A DNA stretch of 34,672 nt from Minwuia sp. (GTDB lineage Bacteria; Pseudomonadota; Alphaproteobacteria; Minwuiales; Minwuiaceae): contig JARGNO010000042.1 in the NCBI GenBank assembly GCA_029213165.1, positions 1 to 34,672 on the forward strand, in the 5' to 3' direction. This document shows positions 5,350-24,760 of this stretch, one piece after another (the first letter of the stretch is position 1; every line of letters starts with the position of its first letter). A program made the translations under genes and the position numbers. The notes beneath the pieces were generated by a model. It was not told the origin of the DNA. It saw nothing but the letters and a program-made list of their open reading frames with translations, and made no database searches.

Positions 5350-5354
5350 ACCGC

Positions 5355-5948
5355 ATGAAGACCCTGTTCCGCATCATCCTTGTTCTGGTGGCCCTCTGGT
5401 TCGGCGGCCTGATCCGCTTCGTCGGCGACATCCAGACCATGCGTCAGACCAATGTTGCCGCGGATGCGATCGTCGTGCTGACCGGTTCGCAGGGACGCGT
5501 GACCGAAGGACTGGAACTGCTGGCCCGTGACCCGAGCCGCCGGATGCTGATTTCCGGCGTCGATACGCGCACGGACAAGGCCGCCCTGGCCAGTGCCTAT
5601 CCGGCATCCGCGGCCCTGATTGCCTGCTGCGTCACACTGGGGCCGGACGCCAAGGACACGGTCGGAAATGCCGAGGAAATTGCACGCTGGGCCATCCGGG
5701 AGGGCGTGCAGTCCATGATCGTTGTCACCGCCGCCTATCACATGCCACGCAGCCTCGTGGAACTGAAACGCACCACCGGCAACTTCCGGCTGGAACCATG
5801 GCCGACACGTACCGGCCGGGATGACCCGGACCGATGGGCGGAGGACCGCCGCACCTTCCTGCGTCTGGTCATCGAGTATCACAAGTATGTCTTCAGCCTG
5901 CTGCGCGCACGTCTGACGGAGGACATCGGCAATGTGAGGCCCCGATGA
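5355..5948 (+). CDS. YdcF-family (DUF218) membrane-anchored protein
   Basis: This 197-residue protein has an N-terminal membrane anchor (about residues 3-24) and a DUF218/YdcF-type domain. The family signature is seen as DAIVVLTGSQGRVTEG near residue 37, followed by MLISGVD, the NAEEIARWA helix and VVTAAYHMPRS. Members include SanA and ElyC, linked to envelope integrity and lipid-carrier metabolism; the biochemical activity is not settled. The ATG at 5355 was chosen. In-frame GTG (5346) and TTG (5343) starts overlap the ftsX stop and cannot be excluded. It overlaps plsC by four bases (ATGA). Membership of an ftsEX-plsC operon suggests an envelope biogenesis role, which is inference. Confidence 0.87.
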   Translation: MKTLFRIILVLVALWFGGLIRFVGDIQTMRQTNVAADAIVVLTGSQGRVTEGLELLARDPSRRMLISGVDTRTDKAALASAYPASAALIACCVTLGPDAKDTVGNAEEIARWAIREGVQSMIVVTAAYHMPRSLVELKRTTGNFRLEPWPTRTGRDDPDRWAEDRRTFLRLVIEYHKYVFSLLRARLTEDIGNVRPR

Positions 5949-6670
5949 CCAGTCTGGTCCGCGCCACGCTGTTCAATCTATGGTTCTTCGGCTGGACCAT
6001 CGTGGCCCTGCTGGTCTTCATTCCTGCCCTTGCACTGCCCCGGCAGGCCGTGATGTTCGGCCAGCGTGTCTGGGCGCGGGGGGTGAACTTCGGGATGAGA
6101 TGGCTTGTCGGCCTGCGCTACGAAGTCCGGGGCAAGCACAACCTGCCGCCCGGCCCTGCCATCATCGCGTCAAAGCATCAGTCCGCCTGGGACACGATCA
6201 TCTGGCATCTGGAGGTGCCGGACCCGGCGGTGGTCATGAAGCGCGAACTGCTTCGCATCCCCGTCTACGGCTGGTACTGCCGCCACACCCGCCAGATCCC
6301 GATTGATCGCGGCGCAGGTGCAAGCGCGCTGAAGAACATGCTGCACAGCGCCGCCGCAGCCCGCGACCTGAACCGCCACATCATCATCTTCCCGGAGGGG
6401 ACCCGCGTCGCGCCAGGGCAGAGCGGCAGTTATCATCCGGGTGCCGCCGCCCTGTACCGGCACCTTGATATTCCGGTGGTCCCCGTCGCGGTGAATTCGG
6501 GTCTGTTCTGGGGACGCAATGCCTTCCGCAAACGCCCCGGCACCATCGTGCTGGAATACCTGGAACCCATTCCGCCCGGAATGGACCGGAAGGCATTCCA
6601 TGCCCGGCTGCAGGACGCGATCGAGACCGCGACGCATCGTCTGGAGCAGGAAGCCAGGCCGGAAGGCTGA
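5945..6670 (+). CDS. plsC: 1-acyl-sn-glycerol-3-phosphate acyltransferase (PlsC family)
   Basis: This is a 241-residue inner-membrane acyltransferase that makes phosphatidic acid from lysophosphatidic acid in phospholipid synthesis. Motif I HX4D is His78 to Asp83 in KHQSAWD, motif III is FPEGTR at 149-154, and IPVVPVAVNSG is the motif IV region. The N-terminal hydrophobic helix (about 8-31) anchors it. The frame opens further upstream (5834), but ATG 5945 overlaps the preceding stop as ATGA and has GTGAGG about seven bases before it. The gene ends 20 bases before the stop of the convergent methyltransferase gene; a weak CCTGA/TCAGG inverted repeat occupies that junction. It is probably the last gene of the ftsE operon. 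Confidence 0.93.
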   Translation: MTSLVRATLFNLWFFGWTIVALLVFIPALALPRQAVMFGQRVWARGVNFGMRWLVGLRYEVRGKHNLPPGPAIIASKHQSAWDTIIWHLEVPDPAVVMKRELLRIPVYGWYCRHTRQIPIDRGAGASALKNMLHSAAAARDLNRHIIIFPEGTRVAPGQSGSYHPGAAALYRHLDIPVVPVAVNSGLFWGRNAFRKRPGTIVLEYLEPIPPGMDRKAFHARLQDAIETATHRLEQEARPEG

Positions 6671-11092: not shown

Positions 11093-12529
11093 ATGACAGC
11101 GGCGACCAGCAGACAGAGCAGGCGGCTTCGGATGGTGGCTTCGTCACCGTCCATCGTGCTTGGCTCGACCCGCGTGATGGATCTGCTGATCATCCTCGTG
11201 GTCGGCTGGGCCGCATACTGGATCCGGCATGACACGGCCAATCCACCCGTGATCTATTTCTCGGCCATCGGCCTGTCGATGTTCTTTGCGGCCAACGCCT
11301 TCCATTTCGCAGGCCTGTACCGGCTGGACACGATCCGCAACATCGGTGGGCAGTTGACCCGACTTCTGGGCGCATGGATAGCGGTCGCGATCCTGCTGCT
11401 GGTGATCGGCTTCTTCTCCAAGACCTCAGCGGAATATTCCCGTATCTGGCTGGCGACATGGCTGGTGCTGGCCTCGTTCGGGCTGACACTGTTCCGCACA
11501 TGGCTGACATGGCAGGTGCTGGCCTGGCAGCGCTCGGGCCTGCTGCAACGCAATCTGGTGGTCGTGGGCGTCGGCAATTCGGCGCGCCGGCTGATCGGGC
11601 ATGTGCAGTCCAGCGGCAAGGAAAGCGGCGTGCAACTGGTAGGCGCCTTCGCCGTTGACGATGATGAAACCGCGACCGAAGTCGCGGGCCTGTCCGTTCT
11701 GGGCGATCTGGATGACCTGCTGCTCTACGTTCGCGCCAATCCGGTAGACGAGATCGTGGTCGCGATCTCCTGGGCGCGGGAGGAGCGCATATCAAAGGTG
11801 CTCGACCGACTGCGCGAGGCGCCTGTCGATGTCTCCCTGGCACCGGAACCCCTGGCCTATCGCCTGGCCGACCGCCGGGTCGACAAGGTCGGTGGCCTGC
11901 CGCTGACCGTGGTGCAGGAACGACCGCTGACCGGCTGGAGCTACATCGTCAAGGCGATCGAGGACCGGACCCTTGCACTGCTGATCCTGATCCTGATCTC
12001 GCCGATCCTGTTGCTGATCGCGATCCTGATCCGGCTCGACAGCCCCGGTCCGGCGCTGTTCCGCCAGCAACGCTACGGTTTCAACAACAATGTCTTCACG
12101 GTCTACAAGTTCCGCAGCATGCGCAATGATGCCGGCGACACGCGGGGCGGCAAGCAGGCCACCAAGGGGGACGCCCGCATCACCCGCATCGGTGCCTTCC
12201 TGCGGAAGAGCAGCCTCGACGAACTGCCACAGCTGTTCAACGTGCTGCAAGGCGACATGTCGCTTGTCGGCCCCCGCCCCCATGCGGTTGCCCATAACGA
12301 GGAATATGCCGGAATCATCGACCAGTACCTTGGCCGCCACAAGGTGAAGCCCGGCATCACCGGCTGGGCCCAGATCCACGGTCTGCGGGGTGAAACCGAT
12401 ACCCCGGACAAGATGGAAATGCGTGTCCAGTACGACCTCTACTACATCGACAACTGGTCCCTGTGGCTGGACCTGAAGATCCTCGTGCGTACCCTGTTCG
12501 TGGGCTTCGTGAACCAGAATGCCTACTGA
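11093..12529 (+). CDS. Undecaprenyl-phosphate sugar phosphotransferase (exopolysaccharide initiation)
   Basis: This 478-residue polyisoprenyl-phosphate hexose-1-phosphate transferase attaches the first sugar phosphate to undecaprenyl phosphate. Four N-terminal transmembrane helices lie between about 28 and 140. A Rossmann-like CoA_binding_3 domain follows (VVVGVGNSARRLIG at about 157-169), then a re-entrant hydrophobic helix at 292-315 and the catalytic bacterial sugar transferase domain with KFRSMR (339-344), SLDELPQLFNVLQGDMS (374-390) and GPRPH (393-397). The layout is that of WcaJ/TIGR03023-type enzymes, for which glucose-1-phosphate is the usual donor; the sugar here is not proven. The ribosome-binding site is weak (GAAG). 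The next gene starts 27 bases downstream, probably in the same operon. Confidence 0.93.
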   Translation: MTAATSRQSRRLRMVASSPSIVLGSTRVMDLLIILVVGWAAYWIRHDTANPPVIYFSAIGLSMFFAANAFHFAGLYRLDTIRNIGGQLTRLLGAWIAVAILLLVIGFFSKTSAEYSRIWLATWLVLASFGLTLFRTWLTWQVLAWQRSGLLQRNLVVVGVGNSARRLIGHVQSSGKESGVQLVGAFAVDDDETATEVAGLSVLGDLDDLLLYVRANPVDEIVVAISWAREERISKVLDRLREAPVDVSLAPEPLAYRLADRRVDKVGGLPLTVVQERPLTGWSYIVKAIEDRTLALLILILISPILLLIAILIRLDSPGPALFRQQRYGFNNNVFTVYKFRSMRNDAGDTRGGKQATKGDARITRIGAFLRKSSLDELPQLFNVLQGDMSLVGPRPHAVAHNEEYAGIIDQYLGRHKVKPGITGWAQIHGLRGETDTPDKMEMRVQYDLYYIDNWSLWLDLKILVRTLFVGFVNQNAY

Positions 12530-12556
12530 CGTGCAGGCCAGCGAAGGCCGGGCAGG

Positions 12557-13933
12557 ATGATCACGATCCTGATCGACAGGTTCATGCTGTTCAGCCTGCT
12601 CTTGATCATGGCTCTGGCGCCCCTGCCGCTGGGCAGCAACCGCCCTGCAAGCTGGAGCCTGGCGGCGCTGGCGGTCGGTGGCCTGATCATCGCATGGGGT
12701 CTGTTCGCCTCCGTCCGCCCGACACTCTTCCGGCTTCAGGGCCGTGACGCGCTCTGGCCCGCTTTGCTTTGGGGCCTGCTGATCACCTGGCTGCTGTTCC
12801 AGGCATCAGGCCCGCAGTTCCTCTGGCATCCGTTCTGGGATCTCGCAGCCGGGCTGGGAGAGCCGACCCGCGGTGCGATCTCCGTCGCCCCCTTTGACAC
12901 CGGCACCGCGGCAATGCGGATGATGGCCTACGGCGGCATCTTCTGGCTGGCGGTACAGACGGGGCGGGACAGCGACAATGCCCATGCCCTCAGTCTCGGT
13001 GTCCTGCTGGTCGGCCTGTTCTACGCGCTCTACGGCCTCGCCAACGAACTGCTGGGTACCGACAGCATTCTCTGGTTCGAGAAGTGGGCCTATCTCGATG
13101 CCCTGACGTCCACCTTCGTCAACCGCAACAGCTTTGCCACCTTCGCCGGCCTTTCCATGGTGACCGGGCTTGGCATGGCCCTGCGTATCCTGCGCCGTGA
13201 CGAAGCGGAGCCGATCATCCGCAAGCGCCGCACCGACCTGTCGCGCGTCGGGGCCGGCCTGATCCTGATGGCTGTTGTCGTCATCGGCATTGCCCTGATC
13301 CTGACCCATTCACGGGCAGGACTGTTCGCCACCGGTATCGGCATGGCAACCCTGGTGGCCGCTCACATGTGGCGCTGGCGGCGAATTCCAGGCTGGGGAA
13401 TGGTCGCTGGCGGTGTGGTCCTCGGCGCGTCCGTCCTGCTGTTCGCGGCGGGCACCGGCACATTCGAACGCAAGGTCGACAAGGCGGAGGCAGGCGAGCT
13501 TGGCGGGCGCACCTGGCTGTTCCAGCGTACCATCAGCGCCATCGCAGATGAACCGCTGACCGGCCATGGGGCCGGTGCCTTCGAGAGCTATTTCCAGCGC
13601 TACAAGAACGCGGATTTCGGTGGCGTCTATTCGATCTCCAAGGCCCACAACAGCTATCTGGAATTCGCCGCCGACGCCGGTATCCCTGCCCTGATCCTGG
13701 TCATCATCGTGATCGGCGGGATCGCCCTGTCGAGTCTGGCCGGAATGCGACGACGGAAGCAGGACGCGTCCTACCCCGCAATAGGGTTTGCCGCCACGGC
13801 CCTCGTCGCGCTGCACTCCCTCGTCGATTTCAGCCTGCAGATCCCGGCCGTGGCGATCATGTACGCCACCATCCTCGGCATCGGATACGCCCAGGCCTTC
13901 CCCACCGGCGGCGGGCGGCACAACAGGCTGTAG
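12557..13933 (+). CDS. O-antigen ligase/polymerase family membrane protein
   Basis: This 458-residue protein has about ten transmembrane helices. The Wzy_C/O-antigen ligase region is recognised by FVNRNSFATFAGL, LTHSRAGLFATG, a large loop with GGRTWLFQRTISAI and LTGHGAGAFESYF, then KAHNSYLEFAADAGIPALIL and HSLVDFSLQIPA. These are typical of bacterial exopolysaccharide ligase/polymerase-like proteins linked to a WcaJ-type transferase. The likely ribosome-binding site GGGCAGG ends right at the ATG, so a start at 12587 (ATGCTG) is a possible alternative. The gene ends 38 bases from the stop of the convergent hypothetical gene; a weak GGCGC/GCGCC hairpin (13948-13963, no T-run) lies between. Which of the two family members polymerises and which ligates cannot be told from sequence. 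Confidence 0.88.
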   Translation: MITILIDRFMLFSLLLIMALAPLPLGSNRPASWSLAALAVGGLIIAWGLFASVRPTLFRLQGRDALWPALLWGLLITWLLFQASGPQFLWHPFWDLAAGLGEPTRGAISVAPFDTGTAAMRMMAYGGIFWLAVQTGRDSDNAHALSLGVLLVGLFYALYGLANELLGTDSILWFEKWAYLDALTSTFVNRNSFATFAGLSMVTGLGMALRILRRDEAEPIIRKRRTDLSRVGAGLILMAVVVIGIALILTHSRAGLFATGIGMATLVAAHMWRWRRIPGWGMVAGGVVLGASVLLFAAGTGTFERKVDKAEAGELGGRTWLFQRTISAIADEPLTGHGAGAFESYFQRYKNADFGGVYSISKAHNSYLEFAADAGIPALILVIIVIGGIALSSLAGMRRRKQDASYPAIGFAATALVALHSLVDFSLQIPAVAIMYATILGIGYAQAFPTGGGRHNRL

Positions 13934-13971
13934 CGGAAAAGACCTCCGGCGCGCGCAAGCGCCAGCAAGCC

Positions 13972-14715
13972 CTACAGCGGCGGACGGTAGCCTGGGGTGC
14001 GGCGTTGCAAGTAGACGTCAAGGAAGGCGCGCATCAGGTCCGGGTCATTGGCCAAAGCCTTCTGGACCAGCGGCAGGGCGCCACGGTGCAGCACGGTCTC
14101 GGCCAACATGCGGGCATTGTAGCGGGCCAGCCCCCTTATCTGGGCCAGCACGCGTTCCTGTTGCCTCTCGTCCAGAACCGGCCAGAGGATGAGGCCCAGG
14201 ATGACCCTGGGCTTCATCAGACCGATCACCTGTGGTCCGGTCTCCAGCGACATGGCGAAGGCGAAGGCTGAGCGGGCGCCGACACCATCCTGCATCAGTT
14301 CCGCCTGTGCCAGCCGCAGCCAGACATAGGGTTGTGCCGGGTTGTTGCCGAGTGACAGACGTCCGGCACCGATGGAGCGGTTGATCGCATCCTTCCATTC
14401 ATCGGAGCCGGAAGGCAGCGCCCGTGCTGCAACCAGTTCGATCAGCGCCAGATCACGATAGGCACGGTAGTCGCGCGGGATCGATCTGGCGGCAGTGGCG
14501 AAAGCCTTGCGCGCGCGCTCGATTGCCGGTGCGCCAAGTGTCTCCCCCCGCTTCAGCTTCTCGATTGCGGGTTCGCCAGCGGTCGCATTCACCGCCCCGA
14601 TCAGGCGCGGGCCACTCATCACCACAAGCAGGGCACCGGCAGCCGCAATCAAGAGGCCGCCGGTGGAGGAACCAAAGGGAATGCCGCCCGAACGCCTGCG
14701 GCGTTTACGTGCCAT
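13972..14715 (-). CDS. Membrane-anchored protein of unknown function in the exopolysaccharide locus
   Basis: I do not recognise a named family. The 247-residue product starts with a very basic cytoplasmic tail (ARKRRRRS), then one transmembrane helix at about 18-34 (GLLIAAAGALLVVMSGP). A mostly helical extracytoplasmic part contains TPR-like segments (AIERARKAFATAARSIP; PYVWLRLAQAELMQDG). The ATG at 14715 has GGAAAG six bases upstream and lies inside the last codons of the wzc-like gene, an 11-base overlap implying translational coupling. The ORF extends slightly further upstream (14754) without homology. Coupling to the tyrosine kinase suggests a role in chain-length control or assembly; this is inference from position only. 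Confidence 0.75.
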   Translation of the reverse strand: MARKRRRRSGGIPFGSSTGGLLIAAAGALLVVMSGPRLIGAVNATAGEPAIEKLKRGETLGAPAIERARKAFATAARSIPRDYRAYRDLALIELVAARALPSGSDEWKDAINRSIGAGRLSLGNNPAQPYVWLRLAQAELMQDGVGARSAFAFAMSLETGPQVIGLMKPRVILGLILWPVLDERQQERVLAQIRGLARYNARMLAETVLHRGALPLVQKALANDPDLMRAFLDVYLQRRTPGYRPPL

Positions 14716-17041
14716 AATACTTTCCGTAACCCCGATAGTAGTAGTAGGAGTCACTGTAGTTATACTTCTGGTGGCGGCGAATATCGACCCGCGTCATGGC
14801 CACTCCGGCGAGATCGCCATTGGCTTCCTGAACCTGACGGATACCGGCCAGCACGGCCTCCCGCCTGGTCGAGCCCCAGCGCACCAGGAAAACGGACTTG
14901 TCGACGTGGCGCAGCAGGACCAGCGCGTCGGAGACCGGCAGCACCGGCGGGGTATCAAGGATCACGAGATCGTAGCGGCGGGTCAGTTCGTCAATCAGTT
15001 GACGCATCGCGTTGGACCCCAGCGCGTCCGGCGGGTTCGGAACCTTTGCACCGGCAGTGATGTAATGCAGGCCGGATTTCAGATCGATCTCCACCGCATC
15101 GTCGATTTCCACCGCACCCGTCAGGATTTCGGCAACGCCCTTGCCATTCGGCACACCAAGCGACTCGTTGACCGATGGTTTGCGCAGGTCGCAATCGATC
15201 AGGATCGTCCGCTGCCCTGCCTTGGCCGAGGCCCGGGCAACCGACACCGCCGTGGAGGTCTTGCCCTCCGCCGGCACCGATGAAGTGAACATGACGGAGC
15301 GCGGGCGCTGGTCGATACTGGATAGCATCAGCGATGTTCGGATCGTTCGTATCGCTTCCGAATATAGCGAATTCGGTTCGTCGATCACGAAGTCCTCAGG
15401 TGTCGAGCGGCGGCTGTCGAGCATCGACAGGCGGGGCACCAGACCGAGGGCCGGAACATAGGCGAGCTGCTGCAACTGCTGCAGGGAGCGGAAGCCGGTA
15501 TCCATGTATTCGATCAGGAAGACCACCAGGACACCCAGGATGGCGGAACCGACCAGGGCGGCCGCGATTGTCAGGCTGCGGCGCGGGAAGCTCGGCTCCA
15601 GCGGGGTGCCGGCGCTGTTGATCACGCGTGCGCTTGCCTGCTGCGGGCTGCGCTCCTGCAGATCGACTTCCTTGAAGCGGCTGAGGATGGTGTCATAGAG
15701 CTGCTTGGCTGCATTTCGCTCGGATTCCAGCGACCGCAGGGTCACTTCGGAGTCAGTCTGTTCGGCGACCTGGAACGCCAGCGCCTCGATTTCCGTGTTC
15801 AGGTTCTCGACCTTCACCCGCGACAGTTCCAGCTTGTTGTCGAGCGCGATGACGATCTTGGTGATCTCGGAACGGATGGCGACCTGGAGGTCGGCCAGTT
15901 CGGCGCGCTTCAGCTGCAGCCGGGGATGCTGGTCACGCAATTGGGTGCGCAGTTCCGCGATCTCGCGCAGCACCTCTGCCTCCTGCTCCCTCAGGCGGAC
16001 GATCAGGGTGGAATCGAGCACCGCAGTCACGCTCTCGATGCCGTCGGCACCTTCATTCAGCAGCCGCTTGACCTGGGCAACACGTGCCTCCGCTTCGGCC
16101 TGCAACTCCCTGGCACCGACCCGCTGGCGGTTCAGTTCCGCGAGCTGTTCCTGCAGCAGGGTCGTCTGATTGCGGTAATCCACGACGCCATGGTCACGAC
16201 GGAACTGCTCCAGCGCCTGCTCGGAGGACAGATAGTCAGCCTTCAGCCGCTCCGCCTCGCTGCCCAGGAAACTGGAAGCGTTGGACGTGGCCTCGCTCTT
16301 CTCTGTCCGGGTCGAGTCGACATAGACCTGCGCAAAGGCATTCGCGATCTCCCTTGCGAAACCCGGCTTGTCGGAGACGAAACTGATGGAGATGGTGCGT
16401 GCCCGCTCCGACGGATCGACACCCAGGTTGCCGAGCAGGCCCTTCAGCACGGCCTGTTGTTCGAATGTGGCACGCTCCTCCGGTGTCATGCTCTCGAGCA
16501 GGGAAAGCTTCGGACTTTCCTGTGACCCGCCACGCAGGGTGTCCAGCGCGCCACGCACACCCTCCACGACCGGATCAGGCAGAACGCTCTTCACCGCGGC
16601 CTTGATGCCGTCGAACAGGGAAGCCTTGTCCTGATCCCCCCACCAGAGTGCGGAAGGATCCTCGAACAAACCCATGCGCTTGGCCACTTCCTCCGCCGCG
16701 AACGTGGAGGAGATGATCGCCGCCTGGGTCTCGTTGAAATAGAAGTCCTGCTGCCCCTGCTGCAACACATCCTGAATGTTGACGACGCGCTGGTCCTGGA
16801 TGCCGATCTCGACCTCGGCTGTCGCGACATAGAGCGGGGTCCGGGTCTTGACCCAGTAGTAGGCAATGGCTGTGACGAACAGCATGATGGCGAGGATGAT
16901 CAGCTTCCGCCGCCAGACAACACCAAAGACATGGCGAAAGCTGATCAGCGACTGATCGCCCTGCGACTGCGCCATGAATGGCGGCAGTTCTGAGGAATCA
17001 TCCATGTGCTGTGCCTGCTGCAGATAACTCACGCTTGCCAT
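14705..17041 (-). CDS. Polysaccharide co-polymerase / BY-type tyrosine autokinase (Wzc/ExoP-like)
   Basis: This 778-residue inner-membrane protein controls chain length and export of polysaccharide through cycles of tyrosine phosphorylation. It has an N-terminal Wzz domain with a first transmembrane helix at about 46-63, a long periplasmic coiled-coil region (about 250-440), a second helix at about 490-511 preceded by PLEPSFPRR, and a cytoplasmic BY-kinase domain. Walker A is PAEGKTST (590-597), Walker A' ILIDCD (613-618) and Walker B VILDTPP (693-699). The last 18 residues hold nine tyrosines (YNYSDSYYYYRGYGKYYGT), the expected autophosphorylation cluster. The ATG at 17041 follows GGACAGG; in-frame alternatives are 17089 and 17005. 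No Wza-type export partner is in the window. Confidence 0.95.
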   Translation of the reverse strand: MASVSYLQQAQHMDDSSELPPFMAQSQGDQSLISFRHVFGVVWRRKLIILAIMLFVTAIAYYWVKTRTPLYVATAEVEIGIQDQRVVNIQDVLQQGQQDFYFNETQAAIISSTFAAEEVAKRMGLFEDPSALWWGDQDKASLFDGIKAAVKSVLPDPVVEGVRGALDTLRGGSQESPKLSLLESMTPEERATFEQQAVLKGLLGNLGVDPSERARTISISFVSDKPGFAREIANAFAQVYVDSTRTEKSEATSNASSFLGSEAERLKADYLSSEQALEQFRRDHGVVDYRNQTTLLQEQLAELNRQRVGARELQAEAEARVAQVKRLLNEGADGIESVTAVLDSTLIVRLREQEAEVLREIAELRTQLRDQHPRLQLKRAELADLQVAIRSEITKIVIALDNKLELSRVKVENLNTEIEALAFQVAEQTDSEVTLRSLESERNAAKQLYDTILSRFKEVDLQERSPQQASARVINSAGTPLEPSFPRRSLTIAAALVGSAILGVLVVFLIEYMDTGFRSLQQLQQLAYVPALGLVPRLSMLDSRRSTPEDFVIDEPNSLYSEAIRTIRTSLMLSSIDQRPRSVMFTSSVPAEGKTSTAVSVARASAKAGQRTILIDCDLRKPSVNESLGVPNGKGVAEILTGAVEIDDAVEIDLKSGLHYITAGAKVPNPPDALGSNAMRQLIDELTRRYDLVILDTPPVLPVSDALVLLRHVDKSVFLVRWGSTRREAVLAGIRQVQEANGDLAGVAMTRVDIRRHQKYNYSDSYYYYRGYGKYYGT

Positions 17042-17097
17042 GTTGCCTGTCCGTCTCGGTTGAACGAGCCCGGCCTGAAAACGAATCACAAACTACG

Positions 17098-17437: not shown

Positions 17438-20407
17438 TCAATTGATGGCGCTCAGCGGCCTGTCGCGCAATCTGTCACGATATGAGGTCATGAACGCCTC
17501 GAATTGGTCAACCTGGGCAATTTCCGCAGCCAGATTGCGAAACTCGGCGCTGTCACGGCGGTCTTCGGAAGTCACGACCTGAAACGAAGGCCACTCCGGC
17601 TGGCCCTGCATCCGCTCGCCGAACGACCGGCGCAATTCGGCCAGCGCGGTGCGGTCCCCTGCCAGGGAACTGGCAATGGCGAAGCGCAGGATGTCGCGAC
17701 GGGCATCCTTGTTCAGTGGCTGCGATCCCGACCTGAGGGATTCGAGCTTCGGCGCCAGCGAGATGGCGGCCCGTGCCCACTTGCGGGCGCGCCACAGGAT
17801 CTCGGTGCGGACGTTGTCCACATCGTCACCCGAAAGTCCGGCGAGCAGGATCAGGGCACGGTCGTAGCTGCCGATCTCGGTCTGGGCCCGCGACTCCAGC
17901 AGCAGGCGTTCACGCCGCATGCCTTCATCCATCGAGAGGTTGCGTGTTGTCCGCAGGGCTTCGATCGCATCCTTCGGACGTCCATCCAGCAGGTTGAGCA
18001 CGGCAAGCCGTGTACCCACCCGCGCCTTCTCGTCGCCGGACAGCCTGTGCAGGATCTGGTGCTCCAGCAGTTTCGATGCCTCACCCAGCAGTTCCACTGC
18101 CGCCAGCCGGTCCGCCAGCCGCCGGATCATCCGGTCACCACGTTCCCCGTCCGGCGTCAGTTCCCGGAACTCGTAATAGAGCGCCATGGCCGTGACGGGC
18201 GACATCTCCGCACCCTCTCCACGTTCGAACAGCTCGGCGAAGACTTCCTTCATTTCACCTGCCAGTGCCTGTGCTTCCGGCATGCCGGGGAATTGCTCGA
18301 CAGTCTGGCGCATGGTCATCAGACCCTTGCGGAACTGTCCGTCCTGCACATACAGGCCGGCCAGGCGCTGCATCAGTTCGAATTCGAACACATCCCCGCG
18401 CCAGGCAAACCGCAACCGCTCCAGCCGCTCGATGGCCTCCGCCATGTCGATGCGTTCCTCATCCAGCAGCAGATTGGTCTCCGCATAGATGGCCCGTGCA
18501 CGAACCGGGCGATAGGGGCTCTGGGCCAGTTCGGAATAGAGGGTGCCGGCTTCTTCCATGTCGCCCGACAGCGCATGGATGCGGGCGGCGAGCAGTTTTG
18601 CTTCCTCCCGCCGGGATTCCGTTCCGGAATGCCGCAACAGGGCAGAGACCTGTTCCCCGGCCAGTTTCGGGTCGTGCAGGGCCAATGCTGTCTCGGCCAG
18701 CGCCAGTCGCAATTCCGGCTGCATCTCATCGGGCATCTTGGACATCATCGGCATGCCGCCTGTGAACTCCCGTCGTGCCTCGGAAAACTCCCGGCGCTTG
18801 GCCGCCAGCAGGCCACGGAAAAGGGCAACGTCCTGCGCGTGCTGCAGTTTCGGGTGACGCAGGTCGGCTGCCGCCTCCCCATACTTGCCCGCGAACAGCC
18901 GGGCAACGCCGCGCAGTGCACGATATGACGGATCCGTATCGGCGTATTTGTCCTCTGCCTCAATCCGGTCCATCACACCCAGCGCTTCCTGTGCCAGACG
19001 GTGTCCGACCATGAAGCGGGCCAGCGCCAGTCGTTCCCCGTTGCGGGCCGCCGGGGTGGCGACCGCGATGCGGTACATCAGTTCCTGTCGCTTCTCGTCG
19101 ACATCGTAGTCCCCCTTCCATGCAGCCAGATCGAAGACAGTGGTCGGTCCCGTGCTTTCCGTACCACCGGTAATGCCTGGCGGCTGACCGGCAGACTTTC
19201 CTGACGCATCGTCACTTTCTTCCGCCAGGAACAGGGTCTCACGACCGCCGATCGACAAGCCGCGCTCGGTCGTGTCGATGTTCAGCGCCTCTGCGTGGAA
19301 TCGAATGGCGATACCCTGCTGCGTCGGGGGCAGGTCGAAGAGAACATAGCGCCGTGCAGGATGCACACCCAGTCCGGCCTCCAGAACCGGCACCAGAGCC
19401 AGTCGGTCGCCAACGATCGGATCGTCGATCAGGATCGGTGTTCCCGCATCCGCAATGGGCGCGAATATCCGTGGGCCGGACGGGGCGTCGGCTTGCGCCT
19501 CCAGCCGGATCGCGGTTTCTGCGCGCCCCCGACCGCCACCAATATCGACGACCCAGTCGTTGCCATCGACATTGACGGACAGCGCCGCCCCTGCCGCAAT
19601 GTCGATGCGAACCACCGAACCGCTGGCGGACGGTTCAGTCACCACGCGCTCCACCGGCCCCTGGGCAATTGCGCCCTGCGGCCCGGGTTCGACCTTCCGG
19701 TCGGAACCGAATGCCAGCCAGACATGTTCACCGCGATGCACCGCCACGGCCGCCACCCGTTCCGGCCACCGGAAGCGCATGATCGTGCGCCCGGGACGCA
19801 GGTCATAGGTCACCGGTACCACATCCGGATCAATCGGTGCGACCGCAGCCACATCCGGCGCGGATCCCGCCGTCGCAGATGCCGTGGCAGGTGGGCGGAA
19901 GGATGGACGCTGACTGATCTTCGGTGCAGGTGCAGGCTTCGCCTGCGGCCGGGCGGCAACAGCCGGAGCCTTCACGACCGGGGCCTTGCTGGCGGCAGGC
20001 TTCGGCGCGTTCCTGTTCGCCACGGCTGTGGAACCCGCCGTTTCGGATACATCCAGGACGACCTTGCCACCGGCCTTGAAATGCTTGCCGAGACTGCCGC
20101 CCTTCAGCAGCAACCGGACCGTGCGCCCATCGTCCAGCACCTCGACCGCACGGATTGCCCTGGCGCCGATGGTGCGGAATGCGGAGAGATCGAAGTCCGC
20201 TGCACGGGCGAATGTCACATCGATGGCATCAGCATTGGCCGAGACCTCGTAGGATGCGGCCTCCGGCCAATCGAACACGACACGGCTGAAGCCGGGATGA
20301 TCACCGAAGCGGACACGCACATTGTCCGCCGCCTGTGCCAGACCCGCCATCATCGCCAGCCCGAGCACAAGCATGAACGAGGTGAAACGCAGCATTCTGA
20401 TGGTCAT
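17438..20407 (-). CDS. Large secreted AMIN-like / TPR-like protein in the flagellar motor operon
   Basis: This 989-residue protein has a signal peptide (cleavage likely after AQA at residue 26). A first AMIN-like beta domain spans about 29-120, with SRVVFDWPEAASYEV and a KVVLDV end strand. A disordered Ala/Pro/Lys linker follows (about 128-190), then a second related region starting near 200 (TIMRFRWPERVAAVAVHRG). From about 435 to the end it is helical and TPR-like; AKLLAARIHALSGDMEEAG and AEAIERLERLRFAW are examples. AMIN domains commonly bind peptidoglycan or secretin-type envelope structures, and TPRs mediate protein contacts. The ATG overlaps the stop of the preceding MotB-like gene by four bases, the last junction of the fliL operon. 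I know of no assigned function; a periplasmic scaffold around the motor is inference. Confidence 0.87.
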   Translation of the reverse strand: MTIRMLRFTSFMLVLGLAMMAGLAQAADNVRVRFGDHPGFSRVVFDWPEAASYEVSANADAIDVTFARAADFDLSAFRTIGARAIRAVEVLDDGRTVRLLLKGGSLGKHFKAGGKVVLDVSETAGSTAVANRNAPKPAASKAPVVKAPAVAARPQAKPAPAPKISQRPSFRPPATASATAGSAPDVAAVAPIDPDVVPVTYDLRPGRTIMRFRWPERVAAVAVHRGEHVWLAFGSDRKVEPGPQGAIAQGPVERVVTEPSASGSVVRIDIAAGAALSVNVDGNDWVVDIGGGRGRAETAIRLEAQADAPSGPRIFAPIADAGTPILIDDPIVGDRLALVPVLEAGLGVHPARRYVLFDLPPTQQGIAIRFHAEALNIDTTERGLSIGGRETLFLAEESDDASGKSAGQPPGITGGTESTGPTTVFDLAAWKGDYDVDEKRQELMYRIAVATPAARNGERLALARFMVGHRLAQEALGVMDRIEAEDKYADTDPSYRALRGVARLFAGKYGEAAADLRHPKLQHAQDVALFRGLLAAKRREFSEARREFTGGMPMMSKMPDEMQPELRLALAETALALHDPKLAGEQVSALLRHSGTESRREEAKLLAARIHALSGDMEEAGTLYSELAQSPYRPVRARAIYAETNLLLDEERIDMAEAIERLERLRFAWRGDVFEFELMQRLAGLYVQDGQFRKGLMTMRQTVEQFPGMPEAQALAGEMKEVFAELFERGEGAEMSPVTAMALYYEFRELTPDGERGDRMIRRLADRLAAVELLGEASKLLEHQILHRLSGDEKARVGTRLAVLNLLDGRPKDAIEALRTTRNLSMDEGMRRERLLLESRAQTEIGSYDRALILLAGLSGDDVDNVRTEILWRARKWARAAISLAPKLESLRSGSQPLNKDARRDILRFAIASSLAGDRTALAELRRSFGERMQGQPEWPSFQVVTSEDRRDSAEFRNLAAEIAQVDQFEAFMTSYRDRLRDRPLSAIN

Positions 20408-21003
20408 GTTTTCGGCTCCCGCGGCTGTCGCACCGCAATCTCGAGACGGAAGGCATCCAGACCGGCCCCGACGCGGGTCTCTATAGGAACCGAGCCGTCC
20501 AGTCCGGCACCCAACGCGCGGGCTGCCGCCTGCGCCCGGACCAGGCCAGTGTCATAGACACCGAACCCGGACGCACGGGCTGCGGCGTCGGCCGGGAACA
20601 TTGCCCTGACCGAAACGTGGAGGCCCGAACCGGCCAGGTAGTCACCCAGCAGCGGCAGGAATTCTGCCGTCCTGTCATCTGTTCCCGTCGGGCGCAGCAG
20701 CACGCCCTGGTCGGTCGGGCGGACACTCAGTGGCCAGTTGCCCGCCTGCGCCTCCGACCGGATCACCGTGGCGAGATAGCGGTTATTGCCCGGAATGTCC
20801 TGCATGTCCCGCAATACGCCAGTGGCAGGCACCGGCGGTTCGTCCTGCACCAGGCTCCAGGCGCCTTTGACCTTGCCGAGATCATCCAGCAGATCCTCCA
20901 CGCGCGGCGTGTCGAACTCCGACATCGACAGCATCAGCACGAAGAATCCGGTCAACACGGCGGCCAGGTCGGCAAAGGCCATGAGCCAGGACGACCGGTT
21001 CAT
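20404..21003 (-). CDS. MotB-like single-pass protein with conserved transmembrane Asp
   Basis: The 199-residue protein opens with SWLMAFADLAAVLTGFFV, which aligns with the MotB transmembrane helix SWKIAYADFMTAMMAFFL. Asp12 falls on the ion-binding Asp32 of E. coli MotB, and the FF and following Met also match. The periplasmic part (about 100-195) is a shortened OmpA-like fold. VYDTGLVRAQAAARAL resembles the NxxLSxxRAxAV helix but lacks most of the peptidoglycan-binding consensus. It overlaps the preceding gene and the following gene by four bases each. The nearest described relatives are MotB and, more distantly, TolR/ExbD. No MotA-type partner is present here, so whether it conducts ions is open. 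Confidence 0.85.
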   Translation of the reverse strand: MNRSSWLMAFADLAAVLTGFFVLMLSMSEFDTPRVEDLLDDLGKVKGAWSLVQDEPPVPATGVLRDMQDIPGNNRYLATVIRSEAQAGNWPLSVRPTDQGVLLRPTGTDDRTAEFLPLLGDYLAGSGLHVSVRAMFPADAAARASGFGVYDTGLVRAQAAARALGAGLDGSVPIETRVGAGLDAFRLEIAVRQPREPKT

Positions 21004-21719
21004 GTCGTACCCTCCCCGTTCCGGGTCAGGACAAGACGCAGATCGGAATCCGTACCCTGATCCTCGATCCGCACGGCAAATGCGGAAGCATCGACACCCG
21101 CACGCACCAGATCACGACCAAGGGCAGCAGCCCGGCGGATCGCAAGATCGGACGACTCGCCCGGGGGCACCACCAGGGTAAGGGACAGGTTGTCGGCCCG
21201 GCCGATACCGGCCAGCACTTCCGCCATACGTCGCATGACGGACAGGCGCTGGGTGCGGAGCACGGCAGTACCCTGCTGAAAGACGCGGCGCAGCGGCAGG
21301 CGGACCACCAGATCGCCGTCGGCTGTTGCAATCACGCTCAGGTCCGGTGCCAGTTCCCGCTGAAAGATCTCGCCCAGGCGCTGTTCCAGCTCGTTCGCGA
21401 CCAGCGTCATCGGGCGCTGGACCACAGCCGGGCGCGGCTGCACCGGCAGTCCCAGACCAGCCAGCACCGCCTCCGTCCTGACGGTGGAGATCTCGGCCCT
21501 GGCGTTGAGGACGATGAAGAAGGCGAACAGGATCAGGTAGAGCGAGAGGAAAAGGATGTTGTTTCCGGTGGCACGCCGTTCTGCCGGATCCATGACGGAG
21601 ACCAGGCCGTCAAGCGGTTCAGGTACCCACTGCGGCACAGGCTCGGGCGCTTCCGGATTGTCATCCGGTGCCTGCGCGTCCTGTCCAGTGCTGCTGGTGA
21701 TCTCGCGGACCATGGCCAT
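21000..21719 (-). CDS. MotB-like OmpA-domain protein without the transmembrane Asp
   Basis: This 239-residue protein has a Pro/Glu-rich cytoplasmic N-terminus, one transmembrane helix at about 54-72 (NNILFLSLYLILFAFFIVLN) and a periplasmic OmpA-like domain. The domain is seen as DLVVRLPLRRVFQQGTAVLR, then a helix pair and DLAIRRAAALGRDLVRAG. The helix aligns with MotB (AFFIV against AFFLV), but the ion-binding Asp position is Leu or Ser. The start at 21719 has AGGAAGG six bases upstream; the longer ATG at 21764 has no ribosome-binding site. It overlaps the second MotB-like gene (ATGA), implying stoichiometric synthesis. The two may form a heterodimer; this is inference from coupling and matching architecture. 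Confidence 0.83.
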   Translation of the reverse strand: MAMVREITSSTGQDAQAPDDNPEAPEPVPQWVPEPLDGLVSVMDPAERRATGNNILFLSLYLILFAFFIVLNARAEISTVRTEAVLAGLGLPVQPRPAVVQRPMTLVANELEQRLGEIFQRELAPDLSVIATADGDLVVRLPLRRVFQQGTAVLRTQRLSVMRRMAEVLAGIGRADNLSLTLVVPPGESSDLAIRRAAALGRDLVRAGVDASAFAVRIEDQGTDSDLRLVLTRNGEGTT

Positions 21720-21787
21720 GCCGGGCCTTCCTGAAAAAGGTGGAGCCGCATCATCGCCGGTCATGGTTAAGAAGCAGTGAAAGGCGC

Positions 21788-22477
21788 TCAGTTCTGCTTG
21801 ATCACGCTTTCGATGGCCTTCCGGTCAGCCAGCTCGATCGTCAGTTCCTGTGCCCGGCGCGGCGTCATGTTGGCCATGATCGCGGCGATCTTGTTCTCCT
21901 TCATGCCCCCGGCAACCTCCAGCAGCACTTCCATGTCGATTTCCTCGAAGATGCGGGCAGCATCCTTCGGCTTCATGCTTTCGTAGACCTTGACCAGCCT
22001 GCGCATCTGCTCCGTCTCGGCGGCGTCATGGCGCTCGACGAATGTCTCGATCCGGGTCTCCAGCGCCTGCAGGGTCTCGATCTTCTCGTCTATCCGCCGC
22101 TCGGTCGCCTCCAGCAGGTTCTCGCGCACATCCAGTCCGCGCGCGCGTTGCTCGATCTCGTCGCGACGCCGCGCCAGGTTCTCCAGCAGCGCAATCTCGG
22201 CCGGCGAAAAGGTTGAGGGGTCACGATTTGCCAGGCTGTCCGGCGGGTATGGCGAAGCCTTCTCGGACTCCTCGGCCTCCACTGCTTCCCCGGTCGCAGC
22301 CGCGGCCATCCTGGTTTCCATGGCCGGTGCCGGATCATCCGCGGCGACCGCCTGCGGCAGCCCGATCACGGGCGATACCACGCCCTCGCTGTCCACCAGG
22401 TAGGTGACCTTCAGGCCAAGGACCAGTGTGGCCGCAACCAGGGTGGCAGGCAGAATTCGAACGCCGGGAAGTCGCAT
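21788..22477 (-). CDS. motE: Motor protein MotE (MgtE-N/FliG-like domain)
   Basis: This 229-residue protein is anchored by an N-terminal helix (about 9-28). An acidic linker and a coiled coil (about 85-150) follow, then a C-terminal MgtE-N-like superhelical domain. Its markers are KVYESMKPKDAARIFEEID, LLEVAGGMKENKIAAIM and MTPRRAQELTIELADR. In Rhizobium, MotE is described as a periplasmic chaperone for the motility protein MotC; related proteins sit between fliM and motor genes across alphaproteobacteria. The ATG lies four bases after the DUF6468 stop, with AGG-rich sequence upstream. The neighbours it could stabilise here are the two MotB-like proteins and the large AMIN/TPR protein, which is inference. 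Confidence 0.88.
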   Translation of the reverse strand: MRLPGVRILPATLVAATLVLGLKVTYLVDSEGVVSPVIGLPQAVAADDPAPAMETRMAAAATGEAVEAEESEKASPYPPDSLANRDPSTFSPAEIALLENLARRRDEIEQRARGLDVRENLLEATERRIDEKIETLQALETRIETFVERHDAAETEQMRRLVKVYESMKPKDAARIFEEIDMEVLLEVAGGMKENKIAAIMANMTPRRAQELTIELADRKAIESVIKQN

Positions 22478-22481
22478 GGGA

Positions 22482-22940
22482 TTACCTAACCTGTCTCAGT
22501 GCCTTGAGGAGTTTCGATTCCGCGTCGCCACGGCCTTCACGTTCCGTGCGGGCCGGTTTGCCGTCGGCAGCTTGCTCGGCGGACCGCGCCGCCGGTGCGG
22601 CAGTCGCCGAAGCCTTGCGGCTGTCCACACCCTTCTCGATCCGGTCCGCGACCCGCTCACCCGATGTGGTGACCCGTTGCAGCTCATCCAGCATGCTCCG
22701 CGCCTTGGCCACCCTGGCCTCCAGCTCCATGCCGACAGCACCGGCGGTGTTCTTCAGTTCGTCGATGCTGGACCGCGCCCGCTCCGTCGACTGGTCGAAG
22801 GACTGGACCAGAGCCGCCATGTCGCCTTGGGCATTGCGCAGCTGGCCAAGCCGACGGTTCAGCATGAAGCAATAGATCACCGTGGCAGTCAGCAGCACGA
22901 CCAGCAGCACATCCAGCAGCAGGTTCATGTCCATGATCAT
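22482..22940 (-). CDS. DUF6468 single-pass coiled-coil protein of the flagellar operon
   Basis: This 152-residue protein has one N-terminal transmembrane helix (about 6-26, LLLDVLLVVLLTATVIYCFM) and then a helical segment starting LNRRLGQLRNAQGDMAALVQ. A long predicted coiled coil runs to about residue 105, followed by an Ala/Lys/Glu-rich tail ending KLLKALRQVR. The LNRRL...LR opening is what I associate with DUF6468, found between fliM and motE in Rhodospirillales. The start overlaps the fliM stop as ATGA, with GGGAGAC inside fliM as ribosome-binding site. Function is unknown. Position and topology suggest a membrane-linked motor accessory facing the C-ring, which is inference. Confidence 0.82.
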   Translation of the reverse strand: MIMDMNLLLDVLLVVLLTATVIYCFMLNRRLGQLRNAQGDMAALVQSFDQSTERARSSIDELKNTAGAVGMELEARVAKARSMLDELQRVTTSGERVADRIEKGVDSRKASATAAPAARSAEQAADGKPARTEREGRGDAESKLLKALRQVR

Positions 22941-23980
22941 GATCCGTCTCCCAGTTTGCGATAGGCGCGATCGATCTTCACGGAAATGCTCTGTCCCCGG
23001 CGGCCCATGTTGCCGGCAGCCATCGGGATCCCGCCGCAGTTCAGGCGGATCGCGCTTTCGGGCGAGGCATTCAGCATCATGGTGTCACCGACCTTCATGC
23101 GCATGACCTTCGACAATGGCAGGGTCTGTTCGTCCAGCACCGCGACCAGGTCCACTTCGGTCTTCCACAATTCCGTGGCCAGATGGTTTTCCCAGATCGA
23201 GTCACGACCGAACTTCTCACCCATGAACATCTGCAGCAGCAGTTCACGAATGGGCTCCAGCGTGGCGTAGGGCAGCAGCACGTCCAGCCGTCCGCCACGG
23301 TCCTCCATGTCGATCCGCAGCTTGATGACGATGGCGGCATTGGCGGGGCGGGCGATCGTGGCAAAACGCGGGTTGGTCTCGACCCGGTCGAAGTTGAAGG
23401 CCACCGGCGACAGCGGCTCGAAAGCAGCAGACATGTCAGCCAGCACCACGGCCACCATCCGCTCCACCAGGTTACGTTCGATGGTGGTGTAGGGCCGCCC
23501 CTCGATCCGCATCGCCGCCGTTCCGCGGCGACCGCCGAGCAGCACATCGACGATGGAGTAGATCAAGGATGAATCGACGGTGATCAGGCCGTAGTTGTCC
23601 CATTCGACGGCGCGGAACACCGACAGGATGGCAGGCAGCGGGATCGAGTTGAGATAGTCGCCAAACCGGACCGAGGTGATGTTGTCCAGCGCGACCTCGA
23701 CATTGTCGGACGTGAAGTTTCGCAGGCTGGTGGTCATCATGCGGACCAGCCTGTCGAACACGACCTCCAGCATCGGCAGGCGTTCGTAGTTGACCAGCGC
23801 CGAGTTGATGATTGCCTTGATGCCGGATTTCTCGCCGTCATCATCACCGTCGGCGTCAAAGCCGAGCAGGCTGTCGATCTCGTCCTGGTTCAGGATCCGG
23901 TTGTTTGCCCCGAAGGAGCTTTCCAGTTCGGCGTCTTCGCCATCGAACTCAACCGCTTCGGCCTTGTCTTCTTCAGCCAT
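22937..23980 (-). CDS. fliM: Flagellar motor switch protein FliM
   Basis: This is the 347-residue C-ring protein that binds CheY-P and sets rotation direction. The N-terminal CheY-P binding peptide is ILNQDEIDSLLGF (29-41), preceded by an unusually acidic lead. The CheC-like middle domain includes VFDRLVRMMTTSLRNFT and the dimer region, and the C-terminal SpoA (FliN-like) domain covers about 255-340 (VDLVAVLDEQTLPLSKVMRM). The ATG at 23980 has AGAAGG ten bases upstream. It is second in the operon, 51 bases after fliL, and its stop overlaps the DUF6468 start. FliN and FliG are not in this window. Confidence 0.96.
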   Translation of the reverse strand: MAEEDKAEAVEFDGEDAELESSFGANNRILNQDEIDSLLGFDADGDDDGEKSGIKAIINSALVNYERLPMLEVVFDRLVRMMTTSLRNFTSDNVEVALDNITSVRFGDYLNSIPLPAILSVFRAVEWDNYGLITVDSSLIYSIVDVLLGGRRGTAAMRIEGRPYTTIERNLVERMVAVVLADMSAAFEPLSPVAFNFDRVETNPRFATIARPANAAIVIKLRIDMEDRGGRLDVLLPYATLEPIRELLLQMFMGEKFGRDSIWENHLATELWKTEVDLVAVLDEQTLPLSKVMRMKVGDTMMLNASPESAIRLNCGGIPMAAGNMGRRGQSISVKIDRAYRKLGDGS

Positions 23981-24031
23981 TCAAAAACGCCTTCTGCATT
24001 TTGTGGTTACGAACTCTGGTTCCCCGATCCA

Positions 24032-24679
24032 TCACTGGATCAGCATTTCCTTGAACAGGACATCGCGCACCCGGGCCGGGCGCACCGACTGGTTCACGCG
24101 GATCATCAGTTCTTCCTTCAGGCGATAGACACCGGCAGATCCCTGCAGATCTTCCCGCCGCAGTTCGCGCAGATAGACCTGGAAGTGATCAACGATGCGC
24201 GGCATCACCTTCTCGACACGCTGCACGATGCTGCGGTCACCGAACTCCAGTGCGACCCGGATCTTCAGGTAACGCGGCTGGCGGCCATCCGTATTCAGGT
24301 TCACCAGCATGTCGGGCAGTTCATAGAAGATCAGGTCACTGCCAGCATAGGTAACCTTGCCAAAGCTTGCTGACCCACCACCGCCACCATGTCCGCCGCC
24401 GCCATGGTCACCGCCATCGTCGGCTGCGGCCTCAGCATGACCGCCGCCGTGGCCGTCGTCTTCCTTGGGAGCATGGCTGGAACTGGCGGCCTGCGCCTCA
24501 CCGCCCGAGCCACCGCCCAGCATCATGAAGGCCGCGCCGCCACCACCCAGCAACACCAGAACCGGCAGCGCCACGAACAGGACCAGCACCTTTCCGCTCA
24601 GCCTCCGCTTCTTCGGCTGATCGTCAGCAGCCCCTTCTGCGCCTTCGGCGACAGCAGCTTCTTCCATCTCGTCAGCCAT
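24032..24679 (-). CDS. fliL: Flagellar basal-body protein FliL with a Gly/His-rich linker
   Basis: This 215-residue inner-membrane protein surrounds and supports stator units. It has a short acidic cytoplasmic part, a basic KKRR, a transmembrane helix at about 30-52 and a stomatin-like periplasmic FliL domain from about 105 (YELPDMLVNLNTDG, then RYLKIRVALEF and the terminal VRDVLFKEMLIQ). Between helix and domain lies a low-complexity stretch (55-104) dominated by Gly, Ala and Asp with five His. The start at 24679 has GAGG nine bases upstream; longer in-frame starts (24703, 24739) lack one. It is the first gene of the minus-strand flagellar operon, divergent from flgF. Confidence 0.94.
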   Translation of the reverse strand: MADEMEEAAVAEGAEGAADDQPKKRRLSGKVLVLFVALPVLVLLGGGGAAFMMLGGGSGGEAQAASSSHAPKEDDGHGGGHAEAAADDGGDHGGGGHGGGGGSASFGKVTYAGSDLIFYELPDMLVNLNTDGRQPRYLKIRVALEFGDRSIVQRVEKVMPRIVDHFQVYLRELRREDLQGSAGVYRLKEELMIRVNQSVRPARVRDVLFKEMLIQ

Positions 24680-24731: not shown

Positions 24732-24760
24732 GTTAACAAAGTGTTGGGATTGCCGTTAAC
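24732..24760. promoter_or_regulatory. Pair of GTTAAC palindromes in the fliL-flgF control region
   Basis: Two copies of GTTAAC (24732-24737 and 24755-24760) lie 23 bases apart, close to two helical turns, 53-81 bases upstream of the fliL start. The spacing would suit a dimeric regulator bound on one face, but no named factor was recognised and six-base palindromes also occur by chance. Confidence 0.25.

Follow-up and report, generated by a model that had tools for sequence, protein, structure and literature searches.

A stretch of 34,672 nucleotides from Minwuia sp., a marine alphaproteobacterium (GenBank assembly GCA_029213165.1, contig JARGNO010000042.1; hereafter the window, one of the 120 contigs that make up a 4.12 Mb genome), carries on its minus strand a flagellar operon in the order fliL-fliM-DUF6468-MotE-MBL1-MBL2-AMIN/TPR, where MBL stands for MotB-like, and raises the question of which part of the motor is encoded behind fliM. 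The coordinates, gene names and gene order given in an initial annotation of this operon agree with the open reading frames (ORFs) and the Pfam profiles. Here, we argue that the operon probably encodes an inner-membrane-proximal scaffold together with the B side of a second stator, with a MotA-like protein from another locus (MotA') as the A subunit and a heterodimer of MBL1 and MBL2 docked on an E-ring and its spokes. This reading goes beyond the initial annotation at two points, i.e. MBL1 and MBL2 differ at a key residue and an orphan motA' gene lies elsewhere in the genome.

The initial annotation had cast MotE as a chaperone. MotE (minus strand, 21788-22477) has an N-terminal membrane or signal segment, a coiled coil and an MgtE_N/ARM-like head, and its gene is set in the flagellar gene cluster behind fliM, between DUF6468 and the MotB-like genes. 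The MgtE_N profile (PF03448) matched with an E-value of 7.7e-6 (26.8 bits, cut-off 25.9), and the collar_FlbB model (NF047368) with 1.4e-8. The latter model was matched by 14 of the 14 aligned MotE members (E up to 0.01, best 4.9e-10), a score pattern that points to a family relation and not to an FlbB equivalog. MgtE_N in a flagellar neighbourhood is the published mark of FlgY homologues, and published work treats MotE, FlbB and FlgY as one E-ring family, with MotC, MotK, CC_2058 and PflA as their TPR partners (PMC13023049, PMC11870540, PMC10954123). Because of the two profile matches and the published domain and neighbourhood rule, we assign MotE to the FlgY/FlbB E-ring family. Two results speak against this assignment: the collar_FlbB score of 34.8 bits stays below the cut-off of 110, i.e. 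the curated model was not reached, and MotE gave only weak coiled-coil and helix matches to PDB sequences (best E 0.063).

Since published work treats MotE as a structural ring, a chaperone is the weaker reading. In this reading, the AMIN/TPR protein is a functional MotC analogue, and MotE serves it as a dedicated chaperone in the periplasm without belonging to the motor. MotC is degraded in Sinorhizobium meliloti lacking MotE (PMC13023049), as this reading would have it, and MotE and the AMIN/TPR protein occurred together in 101 of 192 genomes, while MotE alone was found in four and the AMIN/TPR protein alone in seven. However, FlgY and FlbB of the same family have been seen as rings by cryo-electron tomography and, in Cereibacter sphaeroides, MotE is located at the flagellated pole, MotK is stable without MotE and MotE is unstable without MotK. 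The dependence in that organism thus runs opposite to that of a chaperone and its client, and we regard a mainly chaperone role of MotE as very unlikely.

The AMIN/TPR protein (989 amino acids; minus strand, 17438-20407) is recognized from an AlphaFold2 model and a Foldseek search. Its Pfam matches to AMIN-like (2.7e-4) and TPR (1.2e-4) domains were both below the Pfam cut-offs, and its sequence matched the PilQ AMIN domain weakly (E 0.0034 and 0.0049). The model, with a mean predicted local distance difference test (pLDDT) score of 86.2, comprises a signal-like helix (residues 2-20), a beta-sandwich (28-122), a linker (~123-195) that is disordered, with pLDDT <50 over most of 126-189, further beta domains (196-387) and a TPR superhelix (~427-982). 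Among 350,542 PDB chains, Foldseek ranked 9hmf_K first (E 2.4e-10 over 912 alignment columns; next match 3.9e-8), and 9hmf_L from the same Campylobacter scaffold had rank 33. Entry 9HMF is the Campylobacter jejuni flagellar periplasmic scaffold, in which PflA consists of an N-terminal beta-sandwich, a linker and 16 TPR motifs (PMC12222027); from that description and its length of 773 residues, we take chain K to be PflA. The layout of signal, AMIN-type beta-sandwich, linker and TPR domain follows the pattern of MotK and PflA, and the beta domains at 196-387 depart from it.

Two results count against this fold assignment. The TM-scores to 9hmf_K were low (0.16/0.20), as a flexible C-alpha trace may give; moreover, 9hmf was not among the 50 rows listed by VIA-align for the same model, which were of TPR type (NprR, Rap, LGN and others). 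For these reasons we limit the claim to family-level architecture: the model indicates that the AMIN/TPR protein is of the MotK/PflA spoke type and does not indicate close homology.

Is the AMIN/TPR protein then a MotC analogue, as was first suggested? The suggestion stands to the extent that the protein occupies the place of MotC and co-occurs with MotE; its core idea had already been published for MotK and PflA. C. sphaeroides has no MotC, and its AMIN and TPR domain protein MotK binds MotE and MotB2 (PMC10954123). Similarly, a relationship to PflA, the C. jejuni spoke protein, has been proposed for MotC, MotK and CC_2058 (PMC13023049). A rhizobial motC would be expected directly downstream of motB. 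Here, the canonical motB gene is followed by an ORF for a 448-amino-acid protein (locus L049, 8362-9708), whereas the AMIN/TPR gene follows MBL2. The 448-amino-acid protein is presumably AarF/UbiB-like and not MotC-like. On the contig of genome G020, no MotC-like gene was seen after motB. In a flagellar cluster on an Azospirillum brasilense plasmid (NZ_CP059453.1; L146, 8275-12577), an AMIN/TPR-related TPR gene directly precedes motA-motB; it is not named MotC, flgFGAH adjoin it and R-body genes lie beyond.

The initial annotation had also asked for co-occurrence of DUF6468, MotE and the AMIN/TPR protein, and the three were indeed found together. In a sample of 192 genomes of the class, each at least 90% complete, FliM was found in 112, DUF6468 in 99, MotE in 105 and the AMIN/TPR protein in 108, the last count including some partial or TPR-only matches. 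Among the 112 genomes with FliM, 97 had DUF6468, 101 MotE and 105 the AMIN/TPR protein; the corresponding numbers for the 80 genomes without FliM were two, four and three. The genes for DUF6468 and MotE lay on the same strand within 3 kb in 96 of the 96 genomes with both, and those for MotE and the AMIN/TPR protein lay on one strand within 12 kb in 80 of 101, the other 21 being contig breaks or true separations. In 80 named loci fetched by their AMIN/TPR gene, both MBL1 and MBL2 were present upstream in 60; eight had MotE without the pair, three had one MBL gene only and in nine the upstream part was not shown. Near-copy loci are contained in the locus counts (e.g. L147/L021, L150/L022, L166/L110 and L175/L101), and loci L101-L140 were chosen by their MBL2 match and give no estimate of the frequency of the pair. 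Because of the DUF6468-MotE adjacency in 96/96 genomes and the upstream MBL pair in 60/80 loci, we conclude that the operon order is old and beyond chance.

Such an order could also reflect a mere conserved operon of unrelated flagellar parts, in which MotE, DUF6468 and the AMIN/TPR protein have no functional tie; all three genes track FliM, and raw co-occurrence accordingly says less. However, the associations hold within the genomes with FliM (MotE with AMIN/TPR, p 1.3e-6; DUF6468 with MotE, p 1.9e-6; raw Fisher values, which overstate the association as the genomes are related) and binding of MotK to MotE has been published. We consider the absence of any functional tie to be extremely unlikely.

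The two MotB-like genes carry the less expected part of the argument. MBL1 (minus strand, 21000-21764) of the window had no Pfam match, and its profile matched PomB (3.6e-14); MotB_plug was matched by 34 of the 44 members of the MBL1 family. MBL2 (minus strand, 20404-21003) matched MotB_plug (7.9e-8), and its profile matched MotB (9.2e-21). No OmpA domain was recognized by Pfam in MBL1 or MBL2 of the window, and an OmpA match was obtained for 3/11 MBL2 and 4/44 MBL1 proteins; the periplasmic half of the MBL1 model matched OmpA-type domains, with MotB among the first. At the position of the ion-binding Asp in the single N-terminal helix, MBL2 had D in 113 of 113 rows (three further rows without a letter), while MBL1, which has Ser in the window, had S in 79, G in 20, A in 10 and D in one of 110 rows (two further rows without a letter), near-copies being included in both counts. 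From these matches and residues, MBL1 is predicted to be a MotB homologue and not a functional MotB. In a tree of 39 rows, MBL1 formed one clade with a support of 100/100, and several branches were long. Given this separate clade, we do not favour the view that MBL1 arose by recent duplication of MBL2; the long branches leave the position of the root unsure. An overlap of exactly four bases was found between MBL1 and MBL2 in 63 of 112 loci and between MBL2 and the AMIN/TPR gene in 47 of 114, counted with the longest ORFs and near-copies included. In genome G045, the MBL genes lie outside the operon and are still together. We conclude that MBL1 and MBL2 form a constant pair of unequal members. 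No report of an unequal MotB pair was found among the matches listed in the literature searched, from which most subscription papers were out of reach, and none is contained in the accessible part of PMC12505986.

MBL2 could be an ordinary homodimeric B subunit that works with MotA', with MBL1 as a regulator or plug-like antagonist and not as the partner chain; the missing Asp and the separate, long-branched clade of MBL1 fit this. Yet MBL1 keeps a MotB-type helix and an OmpA-like fold, and is closely coupled to MBL2 even where the pair has moved. We hold the homodimer to be possible and rather unlikely, and prefer the heterodimer.

A B subunit calls for an A subunit. The genome has an ordinary motA-motB at C5:42.3-44.2 kb and, at C5:19542-20324, between fliN and a flbD-like gene and on another contig than the operon, the orphan motA'. 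MotA' is PomA-like, with a profile match to PomA of 3.6e-73. It was counted at a score of at least 250 bits (lowest 254.5, next 237.1), which gave 52 of the 192 genomes. MBL2, for which match scores were seen down to ~31 bits, was counted at a score of at least 68 bits (54 genomes), with the addition of G114 (40.7 bits, confirmed by its locus) to give 55; 12 MBL2 rows of 67.3-48 bits were left out, each of which adjoins its own MotA'-family match (plain motAB, compared by eye). With these thresholds, 51 genomes had both MotA' and MBL2, one had MotA' only, four had MBL2 only and 136 had neither. In the genome with MotA' only (G052), AMIN/TPR starts at the contig edge and no FliM was found. In a named set, which overlaps the class set in part (G206 = G002), MotA' was present in 15 of the 16 genomes with the pair and in none of the three without it. 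Since raw p-values overstate associations among related genomes, we used a FliM tree of 83 rows (a quick tree), on which the joint MotA'/MBL2 label changes 17 times, at least five of these changes being forced by starred branches. The 41 rows with both come from the class sample in 40 cases (of its 51 such genomes) and from the relatives set in one (G029); the 42 rows with neither consist of 41 of the 58 FliM-positive class genomes of this kind and of G033 (relatives set), for which absence of the pair was read from its locus alone; L100 (G064), G052, G119, G121 and G164 were left out of the tree. We conclude that MotA' and the MBL pair came or went together several times. Moreover, a MotA'-family gene directly precedes an MBL2-like motB in G010, G016, G029 and G037.

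These data bear on a second alternative, in which the pair conducts no ions and, in the manner of FliL or MotX/Y, has a scaffold or accessory function, holding the ordinary MotAB at the spoke and the cell wall, while MotA' serves another purpose. The genome has its own MotAB, neither MBL protein of the window has a recognizable OmpA domain and a four-base overlap couples the pair to the spoke gene in 47/114 loci, all of which would suit an anchor. By contrast, the invariant Asp of MBL2 (113/113) would be needless in a scaffold, MotA' follows the pair in presence and in absence, and in other genomes a simple motA-motB pair is made up of MotA'-family and MBL2-like genes. An accessory role is, in our judgement, unlikely.

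We therefore return to the scaffold with a second stator. From the gene families, their order, the fold match, the residue pattern, the co-occurrence and the joint gain and loss, all of which were observed, we infer complex formation, stoichiometry, position at the E-ring and ion conduction as follows. MotE dimers would form an E-ring around the MS ring, as expected of the family. The AMIN/TPR protein, in line with its MotK/PflA-type structure match, would be a spoke that runs outward from the E-ring and holds the stators. MBL1 and MBL2, made from overlapping genes, would form a heterodimeric B subunit, for which PomA-like MotA' from the fliN-flbD locus would supply the A subunit. As the Asp is carried by MBL2 alone, only the MBL2 chain of each second stator would conduct and its MBL1 partner would lack the Asp, in contrast to the symmetric MotA5B2 stator. 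The DUF6468 protein would be membrane-anchored, with the coiled coil on the cytoplasmic side, where the C ring lies, and its likeliest role would be in motor assembly or placement. Whether the same holds widely, i.e. whether many alphaproteobacteria have a PomA-like second stator spread over two operons, with an obligate B heterodimer, a single Asp and MBL1 tying the stator to the E-ring/spoke scaffold, we judge to be evenly balanced.

Several points pull the other way. For organisms that bear the operon, neither interactions nor phenotypes nor images of these proteins are known to us. MBL2 could pair with itself and leave MBL1 as a bystander or regulator, and all torque may come from the canonical MotAB. 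The sole MBL1 with Asp (L117 of genome G048, 5301-6059) belongs to a pair in which both B chains look conducting. The MBL2 scores below 68 bits continue without a wide gap; MBL2 was found without a MotA' match in G064, G119, G121 and G164, which are in ~80 to 440 contigs; and, in the named set, BAL199 has the pair without MotA'.

The proposed assembly resembles several known systems. The MotE-MotK system of the C. sphaeroides Fla2 flagellum likewise has a periplasmic AMIN and TPR domain protein encoded beside motE; the operon also contains fliL and pflI, MotC is absent, and its MotK and MotE bind MotB2 (PMC10954123). It differs in that motA lies within the operon (fliL-pflI-motE-motA-motK) whereas motA' is elsewhere here, in that no MotB-like pair is reported there, and in that the AMIN and TPR domain protein has 652 amino acids and not the 989, with extra beta domains, found here. 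The FlgY E-ring with PflA and PflB of C. jejuni shares an MgtE_N/ARM-type ring protein and a spoke of beta-sandwich, linker and TPR domain, and gave the first PDB structural match; however, the operon described here has one TPR protein, with no adjoining PflB counterpart, and beta domains (196-387) after the linker. PF20072 is present in Caulobacter. In Caulobacter crescentus, CC_2058/CC_2059, which we liken by their published description, are adjacent genes of PflA type and MotE type, and their products have been put forward as the components of the E-ring that was first observed in 1979 (PMC13023049).

Among stators, MotAB and PomAB (MotA5B2) are similar in that MotA' is PomA-like and MBL1 and MBL2 are MotB/PomB-like; they are different in that the A and B genes lie in separate operons here and that there are two B genes, one without the ion-binding Asp. 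The Myxococcus gliding motor AglRQS, which we take to combine one A-type with two B-type subunits, would be like the proposed stator in this respect.

In models of the MotA5B2 motor, the two B chains are equivalent and their two acids are used in turn. If the proposal is true, a one-acid motor would test this two-acid, alternating model of 5:2 rotary motors, and the MotB pair would link stator composition to the periplasmic scaffold. As the pair and MotA' are present in 51 of the 112 FliM-positive genomes of the class, and also in cultured genera, among them Terasakiella, Thalassospira and Kiloniella, whether two acids are needed would be directly testable. As regards the E-ring and spokes, the window carries a recognized scaffold and two genes of 'unknown' function can be named. 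The core of this part is published (MotK, PflA); what was not expected is the mismatch within the MotB pair and the tie of this pair to a MotA' encoded at a distance.

The DUF6468 gene (minus strand, 22482-22940; PF20072, 1.5e-19) encodes a protein with a single N-terminal membrane helix, a coiled coil and a loosely conserved C-terminal end (alignment of 16 members). By the positive-inside rule, the coiled coil is predicted to be cytoplasmic, a position that would fit the link to the C ring suggested in the initial annotation; that of MotE is periplasmic and, hence, the two are not expected to meet directly. Among 14 control genomes, four of which have FliM, PF20072 was found in Caulobacter vibrioides only. 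The order fliL-DUF6468-MotE-motA at locus L096 is like the fliL-pflI-motE-motA part of the C. sphaeroides order fliL-pflI-motE-motA-motK (PMC10954123). On this domain distribution and gene order, DUF6468 is probably PflI, which we state with fair confidence; PflI is a polarity factor recruited by TipF (PMC11236974). The name 'DUF6468' was not found in the literature searched.

The C-terminus of the DUF6468 protein, LLKALRQVR, follows a loose pattern in which the L, A and R positions are nearly invariant in the 16 members, while the preceding linker varies; this end is a candidate docking peptide. DUF6468 also matched, over most of its length, NF046118 (BAB2_0123, 'type IV secretion effector' of Brucella) with an E-value of 1.3e-5 and 25.5 bits against a cut-off of 100, and this match was found in 5 of the 16 members (E up to 0.01). 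By descent, BAB2_0123 of Brucella may belong to the flagellar PflI-type proteins.

The operon begins with fliL (minus strand, 24032-24679; PF03748, 7.9e-21), for which the listed ORF opens at 24739 with TTG and an in-frame ATG lies at 24679, the end of the range initially annotated. In FliL, the His/Gly-rich stretch GHGGGHAEAAADDGGDHGGGGHGGGGG separates the FliL domain from the membrane helix; this stretch could have a role in metal binding or pH sensing. The C-ring switch protein gene fliM follows (minus strand, 22937-23980; PF02154, 2.6e-66; TIGR01397, 2.5e-96, above its cut-off). By their coordinates, fliM/DUF6468, MBL1/MBL2 and MBL2/AMIN-TPR overlap by four bases in the window. The genes flgF, flgG, flgA and flgH run in the direction opposite to the operon.

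Relatives of the AMIN/TPR protein at 75-89% identity were found in Minwuia thermotolerans, Minwuia sp., 'Kordiimonadales bacterium IMCC3096' and an uncultured alphaproteobacterium. In other loci, cheY and/or cheZ often lie between the MotE gene and the MBL or AMIN/TPR genes (L026, L027, L031, L036, L100-L105 and others); the window and the loci closest to it (L021-L025) lack both there. We considered motA as the gene in the gap between MotE and MBL1 of relatives and rejected it, as the inspected loci carry cheY and/or cheZ there. Finally, the flagellar operon is directly followed by an exopolysaccharide cluster (11093-17089; sugar transferase, O-antigen ligase and Wzc-like tyrosine kinase); the Wzc-like gene was not seen at this place in L024, L025 and remoter loci, and is present there in the nearest relatives L005 and L021-L023.

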